The position numbers and the translations under genes are program-made. DNA of 64,000 bases from Gemmataceae bacterium (GTDB lineage Bacteria; Planctomycetota; Planctomycetia; Gemmatales; Gemmataceae), in the NCBI GenBank assembly GCA_019636445.1, contig JAHBXO010000002.1, positions 1 to 64,000 on the forward strand, given 5' to 3'. The first letter of the stretch is position 1. Each line of letters starts with the position of its first letter. Below the pieces are notes generated by a model. The model was not told the origin of the DNA and searched no databases. It saw only the letters and a list, made by a program, of their open reading frames with translations. This document shows positions 3,137 to 64,000 of this stretch, piece by piece.

Positions 3137-5452
3137 ATGCCTACCATGCCCGATCTCTTCCATCCGGCGTTGCTCGCCCTTTACGCGGTCTTCGGACTCG
3201 CGGCGCTCATCATTATTTATCCGCCGGTCCTGCGCATCGTCTGGTGGCTCTTCCTTCGCGCCCTGTACCGGGTCCGCATTTACCACCGCGAGCGCATCCC
3301 GAGCAAAGGGCCGGCACTGATCGTCGCGAACCATGCCTGCCATCTCGATTGGATGCTCTTCTGGTCCGCCTGTCCGCGGCGCGTGCAAATGGTCATGTGG
3401 TCCGGCTATAACCGGAACCCGATCCTGCGGTTCCTGATCTCACGGATCAAGGACCGGATCGTCAGCATCGACAACCGTTCCGCACGGCCGCATGCCATGA
3501 TCGACGCATTGGACGCCATCGCCGCCGCGCTGGATCGCGGCGAGGTCGTCGTGCTGTTCCCGGAGGGCCGGGTGAGCCGGAACGGCCAGATGATGCCGTT
3601 CCACCGCGGCATCGAGCGCATCCTGAAACAAGTGACGGTGGACGTCCCGATCATCCCGGCGGGTACGGATCACCTTTGGGGCACCTGGTTCACTCATAAA
3701 CCGAACGTCGGCCTCCTCAGCCGCATCCGTTCGTGGCGTCGCACCGTCTCCATCTGGTTCGGCGAGCCGATCCGCGGCAAGCTCAAGGCCCCGGAGATCC
3801 GGGCGAAGGTGGTGGAAATGAAGGCGGACCTCGCCATCCGCGAGGCCGGCGATCTCCCCACGGCTCACTACGGTTTCGTCCGCACCGCCACGCGCTGGTC
3901 GAACGTCTTCCGCGTCGGCTTCGTGGATGTCGCCACGGGCACGGAACGCCGTCTGACCTTCGGCCAGGCGCTTGTCGCGTCGTGGTGCCTCGCCGGTTGG
4001 CTGCGCCGGAAACTCGGCCCCGGCCGCGAGCCGATTGGACTTTGGCTCCCCACCGGACTTGGCTCCACGCTCGCCAACCTCGCCCTCGGCTATCTCCACC
4101 GCCCGACCGCCAACCTGAACTACACCGCCGGCCGCGATTCCGTCGAATCCGCCGCGAGCCAGGCCGACCTCAAGTACGTCGTCACCTCCCGGAGGTTCCT
4201 CGAACGGATCCCGCTCGAACTCCCGCCGGACGTCGAACGCATTTACCTCGAAGACGCTCTCGGCGCGATTTCGAAGCCCGCGAAGCTTGTGCGCATGCTC
4301 GCCGTGCTCCTGCTGCCCGCGTGGCTCGTCGCCCGCCTCGTCGGCCTGCCCCGCGTCGCCACCGACGACATCCAAACCATCATCTTCAGCAGCGGCAGTA
4401 CTGGCGAACCCAAGGGGATCATGCTCTCCTACAAGAACATCGTCGCCAACGTCGACGGGTTCTTCCGCGGCGTACCGATCGACCGCGACGACACCATGCT
4501 CGCGACGCTGCCGTTCTTCCACAGCTTCGGCTACACCGTCTGCCTCTGGGCCTGCATCTACATCGGCTGTCGCGCCATCTATTATCCCGATCCGCGCGCC
4601 GCCAAGGAAGTCGGCGAACTCTGCCGCAAGCACTCCTGCACCGTCATGATGGGCACCGCCACGTTCCTGCGCTTCTACATGCGGCGATGCGGTCCGGACG
4701 ACTTCAAGAGTGTGACACTTCTCATCTGCGGGGCGGAGAAACTGCCCGTCAAACTCGCCCATGAGTTCCGCGACAAGTTCGGCGTCCTCCCCCTCGAAGG
4801 CTACGGCTGCACCGAGACCGCGCCCGTCGTCAGCGTCAACCTGCACGATGTGGAGGTCCGCGGCGTGAAGCAGATCGCGAATTCCCCCGGCACGGTCGGC
4901 CAGCCGATCCCGGGAGTCGTCGTGAAGACCTTTCATCCCGAAACTTTCGAACCGCTCCCCCACGGCGACGAAGGCATGCTCGGCGTGAAGGGGCCGAACG
5001 TCATGCTCGGCTACTGGCAGCAGCCCGAAAAAACCCGTCAGGTCGTCCGCGACGGCTGGTACATGACGGGCGACATCGGCCTGATCGAATCCGATGGTTT
5101 CATCCGCATCACGGGCCGCGTCAGCCGATTCGCCAAGATCGCCGGCGAAATGATCCCGCTCGAACGGGTCGAACACGAAATGCAGGAACTCTACGGTACG
5201 GGCGAACGGATTGTGACCGTCTGCGCCGTACCGGACGAGAAGCGCGGCGAGCGGCTCGTCGTGCTCTACCTGCCCGAAGCCGAACTGAAGTTGAACGACG
5301 TGCTCGATGGCCTGGCCAAAGCCGGCCTGCCCAACCTCTGGGTGCCCGATCGCCGGCATTGCATTCGCGTCGAATCGTTCCCGGCGCTCGGCAGCGGAAA
5401 ACTCGACCTGAAAGCCGTCGGCGAATTGGCGAAGGCCCTTTCCGCCGCATAA
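3137..5452 (+). CDS. Bifunctional 1-acylglycerol-phosphate acyltransferase / acyl-ACP synthetase (Aas-like)
   Basis: 771 residues. The N-terminal third is a PlsC acyltransferase: a membrane helix at about 14-40, the catalytic H-X4-D motif in NHACHLD (His66, Asp71) and the substrate loop FPEGR (about 141-145). The rest is an AMP-forming ligase with the phosphate loop SSGSTGEPKG (about 418-427), a GYGCTET core motif and YMTGD. The fusion matches E. coli Aas, which re-acylates lysophospholipid with fatty acid activated on ACP at the inner membrane. A second ATG nine bases downstream (3146) is an equally possible start. No clear Shine-Dalgarno is visible. The role follows from the family and was not tested here. 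Confidence 0.88.
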   Translation: MPTMPDLFHPALLALYAVFGLAALIIIYPPVLRIVWWLFLRALYRVRIYHRERIPSKGPALIVANHACHLDWMLFWSACPRRVQMVMWSGYNRNPILRFLISRIKDRIVSIDNRSARPHAMIDALDAIAAALDRGEVVVLFPEGRVSRNGQMMPFHRGIERILKQVTVDVPIIPAGTDHLWGTWFTHKPNVGLLSRIRSWRRTVSIWFGEPIRGKLKAPEIRAKVVEMKADLAIREAGDLPTAHYGFVRTATRWSNVFRVGFVDVATGTERRLTFGQALVASWCLAGWLRRKLGPGREPIGLWLPTGLGSTLANLALGYLHRPTANLNYTAGRDSVESAASQADLKYVVTSRRFLERIPLELPPDVERIYLEDALGAISKPAKLVRMLAVLLLPAWLVARLVGLPRVATDDIQTIIFSSGSTGEPKGIMLSYKNIVANVDGFFRGVPIDRDDTMLATLPFFHSFGYTVCLWACIYIGCRAIYYPDPRAAKEVGELCRKHSCTVMMGTATFLRFYMRRCGPDDFKSVTLLICGAEKLPVKLAHEFRDKFGVLPLEGYGCTETAPVVSVNLHDVEVRGVKQIANSPGTVGQPIPGVVVKTFHPETFEPLPHGDEGMLGVKGPNVMLGYWQQPEKTRQVVRDGWYMTGDIGLIESDGFIRITGRVSRFAKIAGEMIPLERVEHEMQELYGTGERIVTVCAVPDEKRGERLVVLYLPEAELKLNDVLDGLAKAGLPNLWVPDRRHCIRVESFPALGSGKLDLKAVGELAKALSAA

Positions 5453-30596: not shown

Positions 30597-30600
30597 CGAG

Positions 30601-30642
30601 TCGGACCGGGGAGATTTGAACTCCCGACCTCTTGCACCCCAA
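30601..30642 (-). other. Prophage attachment site core: 3' part of tRNA-Pro(GGG)
   Basis: Read on the minus strand, this is the anticodon loop TTGGGGT (GGG anticodon), the 3' anticodon stem GCAAG, a 5-nt variable region, the T arm GGGAG-TTCAAAT-CTCCC, the acceptor strand CGGTCCG and discriminator A. The 5' half of the tRNA is absent: upstream bases do not pair with GCAAG. Such 3' fragments are what integration into a tRNA gene leaves at the far end. The adjacent integrase gene supports this. The reconstituted full tRNA should lie at the other prophage end, beyond 64000. Confidence 0.85.
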
Positions 30643-30714
30643 GTGCGCACGCGAGCGCCCGTGCGCCTGCCCGTCGATCTGGTACAATTCGACGAACGCC
30701 AGAGAGGTCGAGTC

Positions 30715-31483: not shown

Positions 31484-32389
31484 ATGTCCCACCCACTCCC
31501 ACACGACCGATTGCGCGTGCCGACCGCCCACGCGGTGATCGACCAGTTCCTCGATCACCTCCGCAAGCGCGTCGCCGCCGGCATGAACGAGCCGTCGACG
31601 CTCGCCTGGTACGAGCCGCCGCTGGTCCAGATCCTCAAGCCGTTGCTCCCCCAGGACCTCCACGCCGCGGAGGTGCGGCCGTACCACCTGCTGCCCGGCC
31701 CGCTCACGAACCACTTCGTGCGCGTCGCCCGCCGGCCGTTCACCTGGGCGGCCGAGGTCGGGATCCTCGACCGCGACCCCCTGCACCGGCACAAGGTGCC
31801 GCCGGCCGGGCACCGCGAGCGGATCCCGACGCTCGCGGAACGCGAGGCGATCTACCGGCACTCCACGCCGTGGTTCCAGCGGTTCCTCGATTTGCTTTGG
31901 GCGACGGGCGCACGGCCCGGGGAGCTGCGGGCGCTGACGTGGGAATGCGTGCACCTCGACGAGGGGATGGCCGAGGTCCGCGAGTACAAGGCGAAGAAGC
32001 GGACGAAGGACGCCGCAGCCGTCCGCGTGATCTACCTCGATCGCGTCACGGTCGAACGGTTGCGATCGTGGCGGGAGGAGCGGCTCTGCACGCCGAAGAC
32101 GCTCGTGCTGCGCAACCGGTACGACGACGGCTGGTCGCGAAACGCGGTCGTCATCGCCTTCCGCCGCGCCTGTGCGCGGGCGGGGATCGACCAGAACGGG
32201 GAGCGGCTCGTGCCGTACTCGTTTCGCCACGGCCGCGCGACCGAACTCACCGAGAACGGCATGACGACGCGCATGCTCATGGAGGTCCTGGGGCACCACC
32301 AGGAGAAGACGACACACCGCTACCAGCACCCGCGCAAGGAGGCGGTGCTGAACAAGCTGAACGAAATGTCGGCGAAGGCCGCCGGCTGA
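31484..32389 (+). CDS. Tyrosine recombinase (phage integrase)
   Basis: 301 residues. An N-terminal SAM-like core-binding domain (about 14-105) precedes the catalytic domain. Arg144 sits in TGARPGELRAL and box II is YSFRHGRAT (Arg248, His249). His271 lies in EVLGHHQEKT and the nucleophile Tyr280 in TTHRY. The usual first histidine of HxLR is replaced by tyrosine (Y-S-F-R), a substitution tolerated in some members. It is encoded next to the tRNA-Pro att core, which it presumably recognises. A strong hairpin at 32404 ends its transcript. Confidence 0.95.
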   Translation: MSHPLPHDRLRVPTAHAVIDQFLDHLRKRVAAGMNEPSTLAWYEPPLVQILKPLLPQDLHAAEVRPYHLLPGPLTNHFVRVARRPFTWAAEVGILDRDPLHRHKVPPAGHRERIPTLAEREAIYRHSTPWFQRFLDLLWATGARPGELRALTWECVHLDEGMAEVREYKAKKRTKDAAAVRVIYLDRVTVERLRSWREERLCTPKTLVLRNRYDDGWSRNAVVIAFRRACARAGIDQNGERLVPYSFRHGRATELTENGMTTRMLMEVLGHHQEKTTHRYQHPRKEAVLNKLNEMSAKAAG

Positions 32390-32403: not shown

Positions 32404-32429
32404 ACGCCCCGCCGTTGCCGGCGGGGCGT
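32404..32429. terminator. Bidirectional-looking terminator after the integrase
   Basis: ACGCCCCGCCG (32404-32414) pairs perfectly with CGGCGGGGCGT (32419-32429) around TTGC. It is preceded by AAAA, so the minus-strand read has a short T tract. It sits between the convergent integrase and late operon ends. Confidence 0.75.
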
Positions 32430-45640: not shown

Positions 45641-45683
45641 AAAAAAACTCGGGAAGGCCCTGCAGCCGACCGGCAGGGCCTTC
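45641..45683 (-). terminator. Strong rho-independent terminator inside the structural operon
   Basis: Minus strand GAAGGCCCTGC / GCAGGGCCTTC (arms 45673-45683 and 45653-45663), a 9-nt loop, then CCGAG and seven T (45641-45647). It follows the cement protein gene and separates it from the connector/tail genes. Confidence 0.88.
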
Positions 45684-47175: not shown

Positions 47176-49743
47176 TTACGCCGTGGTCTTGCGGAGGCCG
47201 CGCCAGTCGAGGGCCTTCGCGCCGATGTCGAGCGTGACGTCCCAGCCGATGCCGAACTTGCCGTTGGTGAGCGGGTAGGACCGGGCGCTCGGGGCCTTGC
47301 CCGTGCCTCGCCGGTAGCCGACCTCGACGGTCGGTGCCATCACGCTGGCGAGATACCAGGAGGTGGCCGAGCCGCCGTAGGTTTCGCCGGAGTCGGGGTC
47401 GACGACACCGTTTTCGAGCCGGGACTCGGCGACGGGCGTGACCGCATTCTGGAGCGCGTTGAAATTGCCCCGCTCGGTGACCGTGCCCGCCGTTCCGGCC
47501 ACGACGATGCCGGTGCTGTTGACCAGCTCGAACGCGGTCCACTTGAGGCTCGGCGGGACGATCAGATGCGTCGGTTCGATCGCGACGTTCACCCCGTTCT
47601 CCTGGAGGATCATCATCGCGGAGATCGCGGTCTTGAGCGTGCCGGACGCAAGGGCGGACGAGCTGCCGAGGTTGCCGCGACCCGTGCCGGTGGCGAACAG
47701 GGCGAGGCCGTCGGCGAGCAGGCCGTTGGCGAGCAGGATCGCGTACACCAGGTCGGGACGGAGACGAGCCGCCTTGACGGCCATATCGGCCGCGACTCGC
47801 GAGAACGCGCCGAGGTCGTCGTCGATGATGTCCTGCTCGTCGATCGCCAGCTTGCCGGAATAGCGGGCGATCTTGTAGCTCTCGGCCGTGTCGCTGACCT
47901 CCATGTCGTCGGCGGTCCCGCCTCGCGGCAGCTTGGTGAGGCCGGCCTCCGTCTTCATGCGGGGCCGCTCGTTCGATTTGAAGTTTGGCACTTCACTTTC
48001 GCGGGTCCAGCCGACGGTCGTGTCGGGATGTTCCATGTAGCCGGCGAGCAGCACGGCGTTCACGTTGGTCGTGAAGATGTTCGACAGCGTCCCGCCCGAA
48101 AACGCGGTGCGGATGATCTCGTCCTGCGAGAGCGGGCAGTCGCGGCCGTCGAGCCGGATCGACTCCCGGCAGAGGTCGAGCAGCGAGAGCGTGCTGTAGC
48201 GGTGGCCGGCCTCCATGACCTGGTTGCGGTACGGGTCGTTGATCCCGGCCTGGAGCCAGGAGGCGAGATTGCCGCGACCCGAACCGAAGGCCCGGTTGTC
48301 GAGCCGGATCCCGCTGCGGAGCAGGACCGCTGCGGAGAGGACGTCGTGCGTGCAGTTGCGATCGCGGGAGCGGTCGATCAGCGGGGCGACGCTCGCGGGG
48401 TTGGCGGCGCGGACGTTCGGCAGGCCCGCCCTCATCGCCGCCAGCTCGGCCTTCTCGATCGACCAGCCCTCGCGGATCGCCTGGGCGCCGATCGACTCCT
48501 GGCCGACCGTGACGCGGCGGATGCCGGCGATCCGCTCCATGTCGCGGGCGGCGGCTTCGCGATCGCCGGCGCCGGCCGTGTTCCCAAGCGGCAGCGTGAC
48601 GACCTCGCCTTGTCGGAGCGAAACTTCCATCGCCGTCGCCGTGGTTTCCGCCGGGACGTTGGCACCGAGGTCGATCGGGGTCTGTTCGTTCATCGCGATG
48701 CTCCGCTGGATGGGCTGGGTGGTTCGGTGGCTTGCCGGGGTCGCGGCCGGATCGGCCGTCGAGGTTCGGGATTTGTCTGCTCGCGACCGTCGTCGCGCTT
48801 CGACCGCCAGCTCGTCGAGGACGGATTCCATCGTGCGGATGCCGTCGGCGAGGCCGAGCCGCACCGCCTCCTCGGCCGAGTAGCAGCCGCCGGACTTCGC
48901 CTTCTCGAGCTGCGCCGCCGTCAGCCCCCGGCCGCGTCGGACGGCCGCGTCGAAATGGAGCTGCGTCTCGTTCACCATGTTGCGGAAATACGCCTGCTGC
49001 TCCTCGGTGACGGGAGCGCCCGCAACGCCAGCTCCCTTGATCGGCCCGGTACCGAACACGAGGGTCTTGATCCCCATCTCGGCGGCGAGCTCCGACTGGT
49101 CGTACACGACGAGCAGCGTGCCGATGGAGCCGACCAGCGCGGTCTTGTCGTTGACGTAGATCTTCGCGGCCTGGCTGCCGCACCAGAACGCCGCGCTCGC
49201 GCACAGGTCCTGGACGAAGGCGAACACGGGTTTCTTCGCGTCGGCGGCGGCGATGTCGGCGCCGAGGTCGGCCGTGCCGCTGACCGTCCCGCCGGGGGAA
49301 TCGATCGCGAGCAGGATCGCGGACACGTCCGGGTCGGCGGCGGCTTTCCGGATCAGTCGCCGGGTGTAGACCGTGGAGGTGCCGGCATCCATGCTGCTCA
49401 CGGCTTTCATCAGCGGGCCGGCCAGCGGAACGATCGCGATCTTCTGGTTCGAGCCGGCGGAGACCGTCTGGTATTCCGTGCGGCGTTTGGGTTCGTCGCC
49501 GTCGGCCCGGCGATCGGATCCCTGCCGGACGTGGGCCGCGAGGTCCATCGATTTCGCGAGGGCGAGCAGCGACCGCCCGTACCGTGGTTCAATCGCCCAG
49601 ATCCCGGCGTAGTCTTCGAGCCGGGCGAACCGGGGAACGTTGAGCGTTTCGAACGCGGCCAGTTCCAGCGGCGTCGCACCGGGGAGACTATCCAGCCGTT
49701 GCTCACGCAGGCCGTTGGCGATCGAGTCAAGAAGTCGAGGCAT
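47176..49743 (-). CDS. Fused S49 head-maturation protease and major capsid protein (Mu gpT-like)
   Basis: 855 residues. Residues about 95-335 are an S49 (SppA/ClpP-fold) protease with DSPGG (148-152), the nucleophile in CASAAFW (Ser183) and LVGSIGTL. A linker with scaffold-like composition follows. From about 480 comes a Mu gpT-type capsid protein (HLIVPPSLKWTAFELVNSTG and GFGIGWD-like C-terminal strands). Protease, scaffold and capsid are usually separate genes. Here one frame is open throughout, with no stop or shift. An internal ATG at 48693 with GGAG at 7-nt spacing could give a separate 505-residue scaffold/capsid product. Confidence 0.88.
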   Translation of the reverse strand: MPRLLDSIANGLREQRLDSLPGATPLELAAFETLNVPRFARLEDYAGIWAIEPRYGRSLLALAKSMDLAAHVRQGSDRRADGDEPKRRTEYQTVSAGSNQKIAIVPLAGPLMKAVSSMDAGTSTVYTRRLIRKAAADPDVSAILLAIDSPGGTVSGTADLGADIAAADAKKPVFAFVQDLCASAAFWCGSQAAKIYVNDKTALVGSIGTLLVVYDQSELAAEMGIKTLVFGTGPIKGAGVAGAPVTEEQQAYFRNMVNETQLHFDAAVRRGRGLTAAQLEKAKSGGCYSAEEAVRLGLADGIRTMESVLDELAVEARRRSRADKSRTSTADPAATPASHRTTQPIQRSIAMNEQTPIDLGANVPAETTATAMEVSLRQGEVVTLPLGNTAGAGDREAAARDMERIAGIRRVTVGQESIGAQAIREGWSIEKAELAAMRAGLPNVRAANPASVAPLIDRSRDRNCTHDVLSAAVLLRSGIRLDNRAFGSGRGNLASWLQAGINDPYRNQVMEAGHRYSTLSLLDLCRESIRLDGRDCPLSQDEIIRTAFSGGTLSNIFTTNVNAVLLAGYMEHPDTTVGWTRESEVPNFKSNERPRMKTEAGLTKLPRGGTADDMEVSDTAESYKIARYSGKLAIDEQDIIDDDLGAFSRVAADMAVKAARLRPDLVYAILLANGLLADGLALFATGTGRGNLGSSSALASGTLKTAISAMMILQENGVNVAIEPTHLIVPPSLKWTAFELVNSTGIVVAGTAGTVTERGNFNALQNAVTPVAESRLENGVVDPDSGETYGGSATSWYLASVMAPTVEVGYRRGTGKAPSARSYPLTNGKFGIGWDVTLDIGAKALDWRGLRKTTA
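48693..48704 (-). promoter_or_regulatory. Internal ribosome binding site and start in the protease/capsid gene
   Basis: Minus strand GGAG-CATCGCG-ATG. The ATG at 48693 is in frame and opens the sequence MNEQTPIDLGANVPAE, just after the protease domain. Expression from here would supply abundant capsid subunits without protease. Confidence 0.5.
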
Positions 49744-54854: not shown

Positions 54855-55325
54855 TCAGGGTTCAATCAGGAGTGCGGCCTCAAGCAATCGGGCGCGCAAC
54901 GCCGTGCGGTTGATCCCGCACAAGATGGCCGCGTCGGTGGCCGAGTAGCCGTGGCAAAATCGCAGGATCGCCGCCGTTCGCAGCGGCGGCGGGAGTTTCT
55001 CGTAAGCGGAATTGGGATCGGCGGGCCGCTCGCGGCACGCAGTCTCCGGCGGCGTATTGGACGTGCCGTCCGTCAATCGCCGTGCGGACCGTGGGAGCGG
55101 CTTCCGGAGTGCGGCTGTGATGGCCAGCCACGTGAACGACCGGGCGTAGGTAGGGAACGGGCCGCGGCGGGAATCGTAGGATCGCAGTGCCCGGAGGATC
55201 GCATCGGTGGCCTTGTCCTGGGCGAGTTCGGCGAGAGCCTGGGTCGGCGCGAGTCGGCGGGCGAGCTTCTCGGCCGCGTCGAGGGCAGTGCGAATGTCGG
55301 AGTCGGAGACGGCGGCGGTCGGCAC
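54855..55325 (-). CDS. Sigma-70-like regulator
   Basis: 156 residues from GTG 55325, with GGAGG 10 nt upstream. The first half resembles sigma region 2 (ATDAILRALRSYDSRRGPFP, TYARSFTWLAITAALRK), where the YDSRRGPFPTYA phrase is typical. The second half resembles region 4 (PLRTAAILRFCHGYSATDAA, ILCGINRTALRARL), a helix-turn-helix. It lies just before the packaging and head genes and could direct late transcription. It is shorter than chromosomal sigma factors but has both functional regions. Confidence 0.7.
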   Translation of the reverse strand: MPTAAVSDSDIRTALDAAEKLARRLAPTQALAELAQDKATDAILRALRSYDSRRGPFPTYARSFTWLAITAALRKPLPRSARRLTDGTSNTPPETACRERPADPNSAYEKLPPPLRTAAILRFCHGYSATDAAILCGINRTALRARLLEAALLIEP

Positions 55326-56358: not shown

Positions 56359-56565
56359 TCACGCGGCCGAACGGCGGAGGGGCAGCGGGTCGCCGGGCGA
56401 TTGTGCCCGCATCCGCTCGGCGATCTCGCCGCGCCAGATCGGGACGTTGGGCGGTGCGGTGATGCCGATTTTCAGATCCCCGTTTTTGTCACGATCGACC
56501 ACCGTGATCGTGATCGCCTCGCCGATCTGGATGGTTTCGCCCTTCTTCCGTGACAGGACAAGCAT
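56359..56565 (-). CDS. csrA: CsrA-family translational regulator
   Basis: 68 residues from ATG 56565 with a strong AGGAGG 5 nt upstream; the frame continues to 56586 but this start is better. The family signature is complete: MLVLSRKKGETIQIGEAITI, KIGITAPPNVPIWRGEI and AERMRAQ. CsrA dimers bind GGA in hairpin loops near ribosome sites of target mRNAs, repressing or stabilising them. Here it could reset host mRNA use or time phage genes. A 12-bp hairpin lies immediately upstream. Confidence 0.93.
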   Translation of the reverse strand: MLVLSRKKGETIQIGEAITITVVDRDKNGDLKIGITAPPNVPIWRGEIAERMRAQSPGDPLPLRRSAA

Positions 56566-56594
56566 CGTACCCTCCTGGTATTTCATTCGCGAAA

Positions 56595-56621
56595 GGCCCG
56601 CCGCGAACGTCGCGGCGGGCC
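56595..56621 (-). terminator. Perfect 12-bp stem-loop between the secreted protein gene and csrA
   Basis: GGCCCGCCGCGA (56595-56606) pairs with TCGCGGCGGGCC (56610-56621) around a 3-nt loop. TTTCGCG follows on the minus strand. It ends the upstream transcript or lowers read-through into csrA. Confidence 0.7.
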
Positions 56622-62484: not shown

Positions 62485-62879
62485 GCGGCACCGCCTTCCG
62501 CAGCGGCGGCCTCGGCGAGCTGGTAGCCCCGCCAGGTCTCGATCCACTCGTCGATCTCGCCGGCCGTGATCGACCAACTCGACGACGGCCAGCGGCCGAC
62601 GACGGCGACGCGGAAGTCCTGGTACAGGTCCTGAGCCATGTCGAGGCCGCCGGGCGACTCGCCGAGCAGCTCGACGAGGATCGCCAAGGCGAGCTGCGTC
62701 GGGCCGCTGCCGCGATAGCCCCATTCGAATCCGTCGGGCGAGTGGAGCCGGAGGTCCGTGCGGGGCGGGAGCTCGGAGGCCGTGCCGTCGGCGAACAGGC
62801 GCAGCACGATCACGCCTTCGTCGACCCGGTAGCCGACGAAGGCCACCGCGCGACGCGGCCGGGTTGGGGTCGGTTTCAT
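62481..62879 (-). CDS. DUF6166-like phage protein
   Basis: 132 residues from ATG 62879. It has the family layout VAFVGYRVDEGVIVLRLFAD, SPDGFEWGYRGSGPTQLALA and SSWSITAGEIDEWIETW. SP.GFEWGY.GSGP.QLALA is its hallmark. Function unknown; common in phages and mobile DNA. A second, more diverged copy is at 59958-60395. It ends AAAEGGAA and is coupled to both neighbours. Confidence 0.7.
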   Translation of the reverse strand: MKPTPTRPRRAVAFVGYRVDEGVIVLRLFADGTASELPPRTDLRLHSPDGFEWGYRGSGPTQLALAILVELLGESPGGLDMAQDLYQDFRVAVVGRWPSSSWSITAGEIDEWIETWRGYQLAEAAAAEGGAA

Positions 62880-63520
62880 CCCGCACCGCCTTGCCGGCGC
62901 GGCGTCGTGGGCTTCGGGTCGAGAGGCAGGATGGCAGGTTCGTCAGAGGGGGATTGCGGATCCCTGGAAGTGGCTTCGTCGTCGACCTTCGATTCCCCGC
63001 ACTGCCATTCCTCCGGGAAGAAGAAACGGGTGAGTGCGGCACCGACGTCGAAGGACCGCGGGACAGGAAAGGCGGGCGTGTGAGGTCCGCCGGCGGGATC
63101 GATGGCGACGCTCAACTGGTCGCGATGCGTCGAGATCTCGACGACGAGACCGAGGTTCCGATCGTTCTGGAATTTGCCCAGCGAGTAGTGCGGGATCGCG
63201 AGGATCTCAGGATCCCACGATTCGATCGGCGATCGCTTCGCCGCAGCGATGCCACCTCGCGATCGGTAGACGAGGATCGCCGCGTAGTGTTGCCGGTAGG
63301 GCTTCGAGAACTTGCATCGCGGGCAGTTCTCGCCGTAGCAGCCGCGAGTGATTCGCTTGCCGACGAGTTGGTCGTGGTGGTAGTGCGTGAAGTACGTCTT
63401 CGGCGGGCCGAGCAGGATCGCGACGATCGGCGGATTGGGCTTGCGAAGGATGTTCGGCATCCGTTCGCCGGGCGATTCGCCCGAGGCCTCGACGGGCCTG
63501 GGAAGGGGCATGCGCGTCAT
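62876..63520 (-). CDS. First gene of the early operon: phage protein with cysteine motif
   Basis: 214 residues from ATG 63520. A basic start leads to ILLGPPKTYFTHYHHDQLVG, then GCYGENCPRCKFSKPYRQHY (a probable zinc site) and GKFQNDRNLGLVVEIS. The C-terminal 50 residues are acidic/proline-rich and look disordered. It is the first minus-strand gene after the control region. No family name is claimed. Confidence 0.65.
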   Translation of the reverse strand: MTRMPLPRPVEASGESPGERMPNILRKPNPPIVAILLGPPKTYFTHYHHDQLVGKRITRGCYGENCPRCKFSKPYRQHYAAILVYRSRGGIAAAKRSPIESWDPEILAIPHYSLGKFQNDRNLGLVVEISTHRDQLSVAIDPAGGPHTPAFPVPRSFDVGAALTRFFFPEEWQCGESKVDDEATSRDPQSPSDEPAILPLDPKPTTPRRQGGAG

Positions 63521-63756
63521 GGCGCGTCTCGTGTTGCCGCTGGACCCGGTTCGCTTGCGTTTGGAGCGACCCGTCTCTTCCGCCCAACGTTCGAAGGCAA
63601 CGAGCCCTCGGCTTGATCGTCGGCAGTCGATGCGGTCAGTCAGCGTCGAAGAGTCTAACCAAGCCGGCGCGCGGTTTCAAGGTGGCGGGCCGGATTTTCG
63701 TTTCGACCCGCGGTCCCTGCGGCTCGCCCACGTGCGTGTTCACGGTTTTTGGAGAT

Positions 63757-63792
63757 GGTTGTGATCACGTTATCACAACCACAACCACAACC
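63757..63792. promoter_or_regulatory. Operator-like palindrome with ACAACC repeats
   Basis: GGTTGTGAT (63757-63765) and ATCACAACC (63772-63780) form a perfect inverted repeat around CACGTT. Three tandem copies of ACAACC run from 63775 to 63792, so the right arm overlaps the first copy. This is a plausible dimer-binding site next to the early promoter. Confidence 0.6.
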
Positions 63793-63803
63793 GTGTTCAT
63801 GTT

Positions 63804-63830
63804 CAACGGGCGCTGGTGTCCGGCCCGTTG
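63804..63830. repeat. Inverted repeat CAACGGGC / GCCCGTTG
   Basis: CAACGGGC (63804-63811) and GCCCGTTG (63823-63830) pair perfectly around an 11-nt loop. It may be a terminator-like hairpin or a protein-binding site between the two operator groups. Confidence 0.5.
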
Positions 63831-63849
63831 ATCAACGGACGACAGATCC

Positions 63850-63909
63850 GCGCCCATACGGGCGCAGGTCGCGCCCGTATACGGGCGCAGGTCGCGCCCG
63901 TATGGGCGC
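63850..63909. promoter_or_regulatory. Tripartite operator-like array
   Basis: Three near-identical palindromes: GCGCCCATACGGGCGC (63850-63865), GCGCCCGTATACGGGCGC (63871-63888) and GCGCCCGTATGGGCGC (63894-63909), separated by AGGTC. Centres are exactly 22 bp apart. The first and third are reverse complements of each other, and the middle is a perfect palindrome. This resembles the three-operator layout of lambdoid repressors or origin iterons. Confidence 0.75.
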
Positions 63910-63936
63910 GGGGTCCTTGCGCGGCCAAAATCGACC

Positions 63937-63972
63937 CGGAAAAATTCCCAAGCTCCTGCCGGAATTTTTCCG
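63937..63972. repeat. Perfect 12-bp inverted repeat CGGAAAAATTCC / GGAATTTTTCCG
   Basis: Arms 63937-63948 and 63961-63972 with a 12-nt spacer. The AT-rich arms stand out in this GC-rich DNA. It could be a terminator for a leftward or rightward transcript, an operator or an unwinding element. Confidence 0.6.
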
Positions 63973-64000
63973 AAATCGGGGGTAGACGGCTGCAGGGAAC

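Follow-up and report, generated by a model that had tools for sequence, protein, structure and literature searches.

A cluster of palindromes upstream of the early operon of a Gemmataceae prophage

In phage lambda, the early control regions OR and OL, which serve CI and Cro, each contain a set of three palindromic operators spaced by about two helical turns (23–24 bp). Lambda O-type iteron origins are built of tandem inverted repeats, each about 20 bp long, with AT-richer DNA on their flanks. The iteron bound by lambda O is an imperfect inverted repeat of 19 bp, and the minimal unwinding unit consists of two iterons plus an AT-rich tract (PMC7466680). For the temperate phages of planctomycetes, a keyword search of open papers found no description of early regulation.

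A 60-bp palindrome array in a prophage of a Gemmataceae bacterium shares features with both systems. It lies near the end of the window analysed here, a stretch of 64,000 nucleotides that forms the start of a 303,629-bp contig. It resembles OR and OL in comprising three palindromes at intervals of about two helical turns, in what appears to be a phage early control region. The earlier note had read it as a self-symmetric version of the lambdoid three-operator design, a reading that could not be upheld: no divergent gene flanks the array, no CI/Cro-like protein was recognised in the prophage, the promoter match lies about 170 bp away, and the sites are GC-rich and arranged as exact tandem duplicates. 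Like O-type origins, it consists of tandem inverted repeats of about 20 bp, here between stretches of 44% G+C that may correspond to the AT-richer DNA of such origins, but it is intergenic rather than inside an initiator gene, no initiator was recognised in the prophage, and at most two to three units are present. Because the defining gene of each system was sought and not found, the array is classed neither as a lambdoid operator region nor as an iteron origin. If it works at all, it may, by analogy, work like phage operator or iteron arrays. A compact 60-bp element with exact limits, placed where an early operon begins, would be a ready bait for the first such regulator of a planctomycete temperate phage, while an inert repeat would be of little importance. 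The find is modest: no control protein was recognised beside the array, and none of the related viruses searched proved to carry it.

Sequence and geometry of the array

The array contains the following elements, the three palindromes being read directly from the sequence:

63850–63865: palindrome P1, GCGCCCATACGGGCGC, imperfect (14/16 self-complementary)
63871–63888: palindrome P2, GCGCCCGTATACGGGCGC, perfect (18/18)
63894–63909: palindrome P3, GCGCCCGTATGGGCGC, imperfect (14/16), reverse complement of P1
63856–63880: 25-bp interrupted palindrome, copy 1, ATACGGGCGC-AGGTC-GCGCCCGTAT; a similar unit occurs in prophage L146 (19/25)
63879–63903: the same 25-bp unit again, copy 2, in exact tandem duplication (23 bp) with copy 1

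The centres of P1, P2 and P3 (63857.5, 63879.5 and 63901.5) are spaced by exactly 22.0 bp, and the outer palindromes have 6-bp arms around 4 bp. This agrees with the earlier note, which had described three palindromes with centres 22 bp apart, the outer two mutually reverse-complementary and the central one self-complementary; a small correction is that the outer two are imperfect. Compared with its own reverse complement, the 60-bp array matches at 50 positions.

The same sequence can be written as GCGCCCA, TACGGGCGCAGGTCGCGCCCGTA, TACGGGCGCAGGTCGCGCCCGTA, TGGGCGC, with two identical 23-mers head to tail (63857–63879 and 63880–63902), each of which is a perfect interrupted palindrome. If one 23-mer is removed, what remains is a 37-bp inverted repeat that is perfect in its 16-nt arms and centred on AGGTC. 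Thus, one 37-bp inverted repeat and one exact 23-bp duplication yield the whole geometry of the array, its self-symmetry included. We infer that the 37-bp inverted repeat came first and the 23-bp tandem duplication second. Judged by its sequence, the natural unit of the array may be two 25-bp sites of the form listed above, and not three operators.

The palindrome cluster is real and non-random. One evenly spaced triple of same-arm palindromes is present in the window versus none in 100 dinucleotide-preserving shuffles, and same-arm pairs number three versus a mean of 0.03 in the same shuffles. In 76 kb, there are 19 perfect inverted repeats whose arms measure 10 nt or more, and four of them fall within 63756–63972. 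Two of these four are the array's own, and the other two are separate:

63756–63781: perfect inverted repeat, TGGTTGTGAT-CACGTT-ATCACAACCA, a possible second operator or hairpin
63937–63972: perfect inverted repeat, CGGAAAAATTCC-N12-GGAATTTTTCCG

The array occupies a single place in the 5.9-Mb host genome, which argues against a dispersed palindromic repeat of the REP or MITE type, since many genome copies would be expected of such an element.

Prophage setting and relatives

The array belongs to a 36.6-kb prophage that is inserted in tRNA-Pro(GGG) and bounded by exact 47-bp att repeats:

30597–30643: attL, 47 bp identical to the 3' part of tRNA-Pro(GGG)
31517–32389, + strand: tyrosine integrase of the prophage (PF00589, E 8.7e-23), just inside attL
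62876–63520, − strand: first gene of the leftward early operon, an orphan
63652–63680, − strand: sigma-70-like promoter match (TTGAAA-17-TAGACT), a candidate early promoter by consensus match only
64096–64782, 64868–66289 and 66286–66945, all leftward: genes to the right of the array, beyond the window
67190–67236: attR, exact 47-bp partner of attL, beyond the window

The terminase, portal, fused protease-capsid and tape-measure genes are all read leftward; the fusion, at 47176–49743, is a single 855-aa ORF that combines the domains of an S49 head maturation protease with those of the major capsid protein. The early block, also leftward, runs from 63520 down to about 54 kb and encodes a Rad52-like annealing protein, a resolvase, CsrA (56359–56586; PF02599, E 2.2e-19) and a weak sigma-like protein. 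The proposed phage setting was borne out, as the array sits in a 575-bp non-coding gap of the prophage (63520 to 64096), just upstream of the leftward early operon. A search for relatives of the first early gene found none, and its predicted product structure is uninformative (mean pLDDT about 39), as is that of the 66286–66945 product. To the right of the array, 64096–64782 is an orphan with a hydrophobic stretch, as judged by eye from the sequence, 64868–66289 encodes a TPR protein and 66286–66945 is an orphan. The lower-G+C TPR gene and the orphan that adjoin attR (L003 4868–6945; 64868–66945 in window numbering) are probably cargo, and a search of a defence library gave no match to them.

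The earlier note had also proposed to look beyond base 64000 for a divergent gene for a CI/Cro-like protein or a replication initiator. Neither was recognised among these neighbours, all of which are leftward. Likewise, no CI/Cro-like (HTH) repressor and no initiator were recognised elsewhere in the prophage by searches that could miss small or very divergent ones; the closest thing to a DNA-binding regulator is the weak sigma-like protein (54855–55325). A simple consensus scan of the gap found a single sigma-70-like match (0.2 in shuffles), which lies about 170 bp from the array and does not overlap it.

Homologues of the array were absent from the genus, the family (95 genomes) and the phylum and class samples (392 and 398 genomes), and from phage records and plasmids. 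A copy in related prophages was likewise not found. Both observations that the earlier note would have taken as refuting its reading, no DNA-binding regulator gene near the array and no array in related prophages, were thus largely made; but the early genes that these relatives have in common with the prophage are few or none, so that their lack of the array is weak evidence. Of 102 genomes of the order, 20, the host's own among them, contain terminase relatives (36–52% identical), and the upstream regions of many of these were clustered by their palindromes with the array sequence left unused.

The prophage L146, which has a related terminase and was singled out by this clustering, carries tandem palindrome sites (G060:C5:2400–2444) 22 bp apart between two divergent sigma-like genes, about 85 bp before its early operon. 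The first L146 site, ATATGCGCGC-AGATT-GCGCGCATAT, is identical to the window site at 19 of 25 positions, with a matching centre position, and is the best match among about 200 interrupted palindromes, pattern-fetched sites excepted. Both loci combine a 25-bp unit with an AGRTY centre, a second copy 22 bp further on and a position upstream of an early operon, whereas the identity is limited to 19/25, the second copy of L146 is degenerate and the L146 site is set between divergent sigma-like genes. Homology between the two sites is suggested by this resemblance, which falls short of proof.

Other relatives, L150 and L136 among them, have unrelated palindromes at comparable places. In L150 (15505–15563), two TGCATT palindromes immediately precede a gene that gives a weak ribbon-helix-helix match, beside an integrase-like ORF, and these may represent a regulator-operator pair in a related prophage. 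The host's second prophage, with a prophage-type terminase (G000:C7:73628–75676) and a sigma-like gene upstream (C7:62592–63107), is without the array and has no palindromes upstream of this sigma-like gene. Two further sites, one in G059 with the 16-mer of the array and one in G000:C35 with a perfect 16-bp palindrome, stand alone and form no array, and a palindrome pair in a Streptomyces contig is only superficially similar.

A candidate control element and rival readings

The most likely reading, though still a tentative one, is that a protein binds the array as a dyad-symmetric site within the temperate phage's early control region, as suggested by the dyad symmetry of the array, its two-turn spacing, its position and the site in L146. 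A dimeric DNA-binding protein, either a host protein or the product of a phage orphan gene, would occupy both 25-bp sites (or, in the equivalent description, the three palindromes, which overlap) on one DNA face at a distance of two helical turns. Once bound, it would govern how the leftward early operon, which begins at 63520, is transcribed; binding, dimerisation, regulation and the direction of the effect are all presumed here. Against this reading stand the lack of a recognised regulator, the distant promoter match and the fact that the array is a singleton in the samples of 392 and 398 genomes. With the promoter match about 170 bp away, and thus too far, simple steric repression is disfavoured.

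It is rather unlikely, but deserves consideration, that the array is an inert or structural repeat, i.e., a 37-bp inverted repeat that was enlarged by replication slippage and has no specific binding protein. The exact 23-bp tandem duplication accounts for the triple geometry and is consistent with recent slippage, the array is absent from relatives, and viral contigs often contain single GC-rich hairpins. However, two further strong inverted repeats of unrelated sequence are present in the same 217-bp stretch, and a comparable tandem site occupies an equivalent position in L146.

A replication origin, in which the palindromes would be initiator-bound iterons and the flanking AT-richer stretches the melting region, is also unlikely. 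The 50-mers at 63735 and 63927, which flank the array, are among those with the lowest G+C of the prophage (0.44), and the two exact 23-bp tandem units recall iteron origins, which need similar repeats of about 20 bp. In other viral contigs, palindromes 21–22 bp apart are found as well, some of them inside putative initiator-like ORFs (L052 and L166). Yet the array lies outside any initiator gene, and no initiator, helicase or primase was recognised in the prophage, only the Rad52-like annealing protein and the resolvase. The GC skew of the prophage is not diagnostic for an origin.

An improbable alternative is a hairpin of RNA or single-stranded DNA, which could act as a structured leader, small RNA, cruciform or terminator. 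Compared with shuffled sequences, the leftward transcript of 63745–63985 gives a far better fold (z −8.6); by itself, the array folds into a single long DNA hairpin (z −8.2), and the prophage encodes CsrA, with an RsmW-like match in the region that is far below threshold (E 0.68). Good folding is, however, expected of any perfect inverted repeat, no Rfam family comes near its gathering score, and the sole promoter match is downstream of the hairpins. A CsrA decoy RNA was rejected, as the Rfam match is below threshold and GGA motifs are near chance by eye. Like intrinsic terminators, the array is a GC-rich hairpin between two genes read in one direction, but it is 187 nt past the upstream stop codon, is tandemly duplicated and lacks a T-run. 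In the direction of transcription, a T-run follows the hairpin at 45653–45683 but not the array, and the hairpins at 32404–32429 and 56595–56621 are followed only by TTT. The motif GGGCGC-N3-9-GCGCCC, considered as a host terminator, shows no enrichment across the host genome, with 13 per strand versus 54 for the reversed control. Without a T-run, and with a hairpin that is not widely used by the host, the array is unlikely to be an intrinsic terminator.

Similar palindromes in other viral contigs

A pattern built from the array and L146 retrieved single sites in L173 and L174 that are 24/25 identical to the 25-bp unit of the array. A scan with the arms only gave three sites, L173 and L174 among them, and an AGRTY-type centre was not forced in this count, as only the arms were used. 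No firm conclusion can be drawn from these two sites, since an arm-permuted control gave 13 matches versus three for the real arms, and GC-rich interrupted palindromes are common in viral contigs. It is far-fetched that the 25-bp AGRTY-centred palindrome, tandem here and in L146 and single in L173 and L174, would be the site of one phage regulator or initiator across otherwise unrelated phages, encoded here by one of the orphan early genes.

Two other pattern matches were rejected. In L164 (4710–4743), tandem GGCGCAAGTTGCGCC palindromes lie 21 bp apart and precede a gene for a P22_AR_N antirepressor as well as an integrase-like ORF; the match in L165 falls within coding sequence. The resemblance of both to the array is partly forced, because they were fetched with the same pattern. 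Palindromes 21–22 bp apart inside ORFs occur in L052 and L166, and a wider pair in L101. These ORFs were called initiator-like by position or sequence, and Pfam weakly supports a winged helix in L052 and nothing in L101 and L166. In L052 (4455–4604; also in L051), GTGCGCAC-type palindromes, some of them 22 bp apart, are contained in ORF 4154–4783, which by eye directly follows a DnaB-like helicase ORF and looks like an initiator gene with an origin within it.
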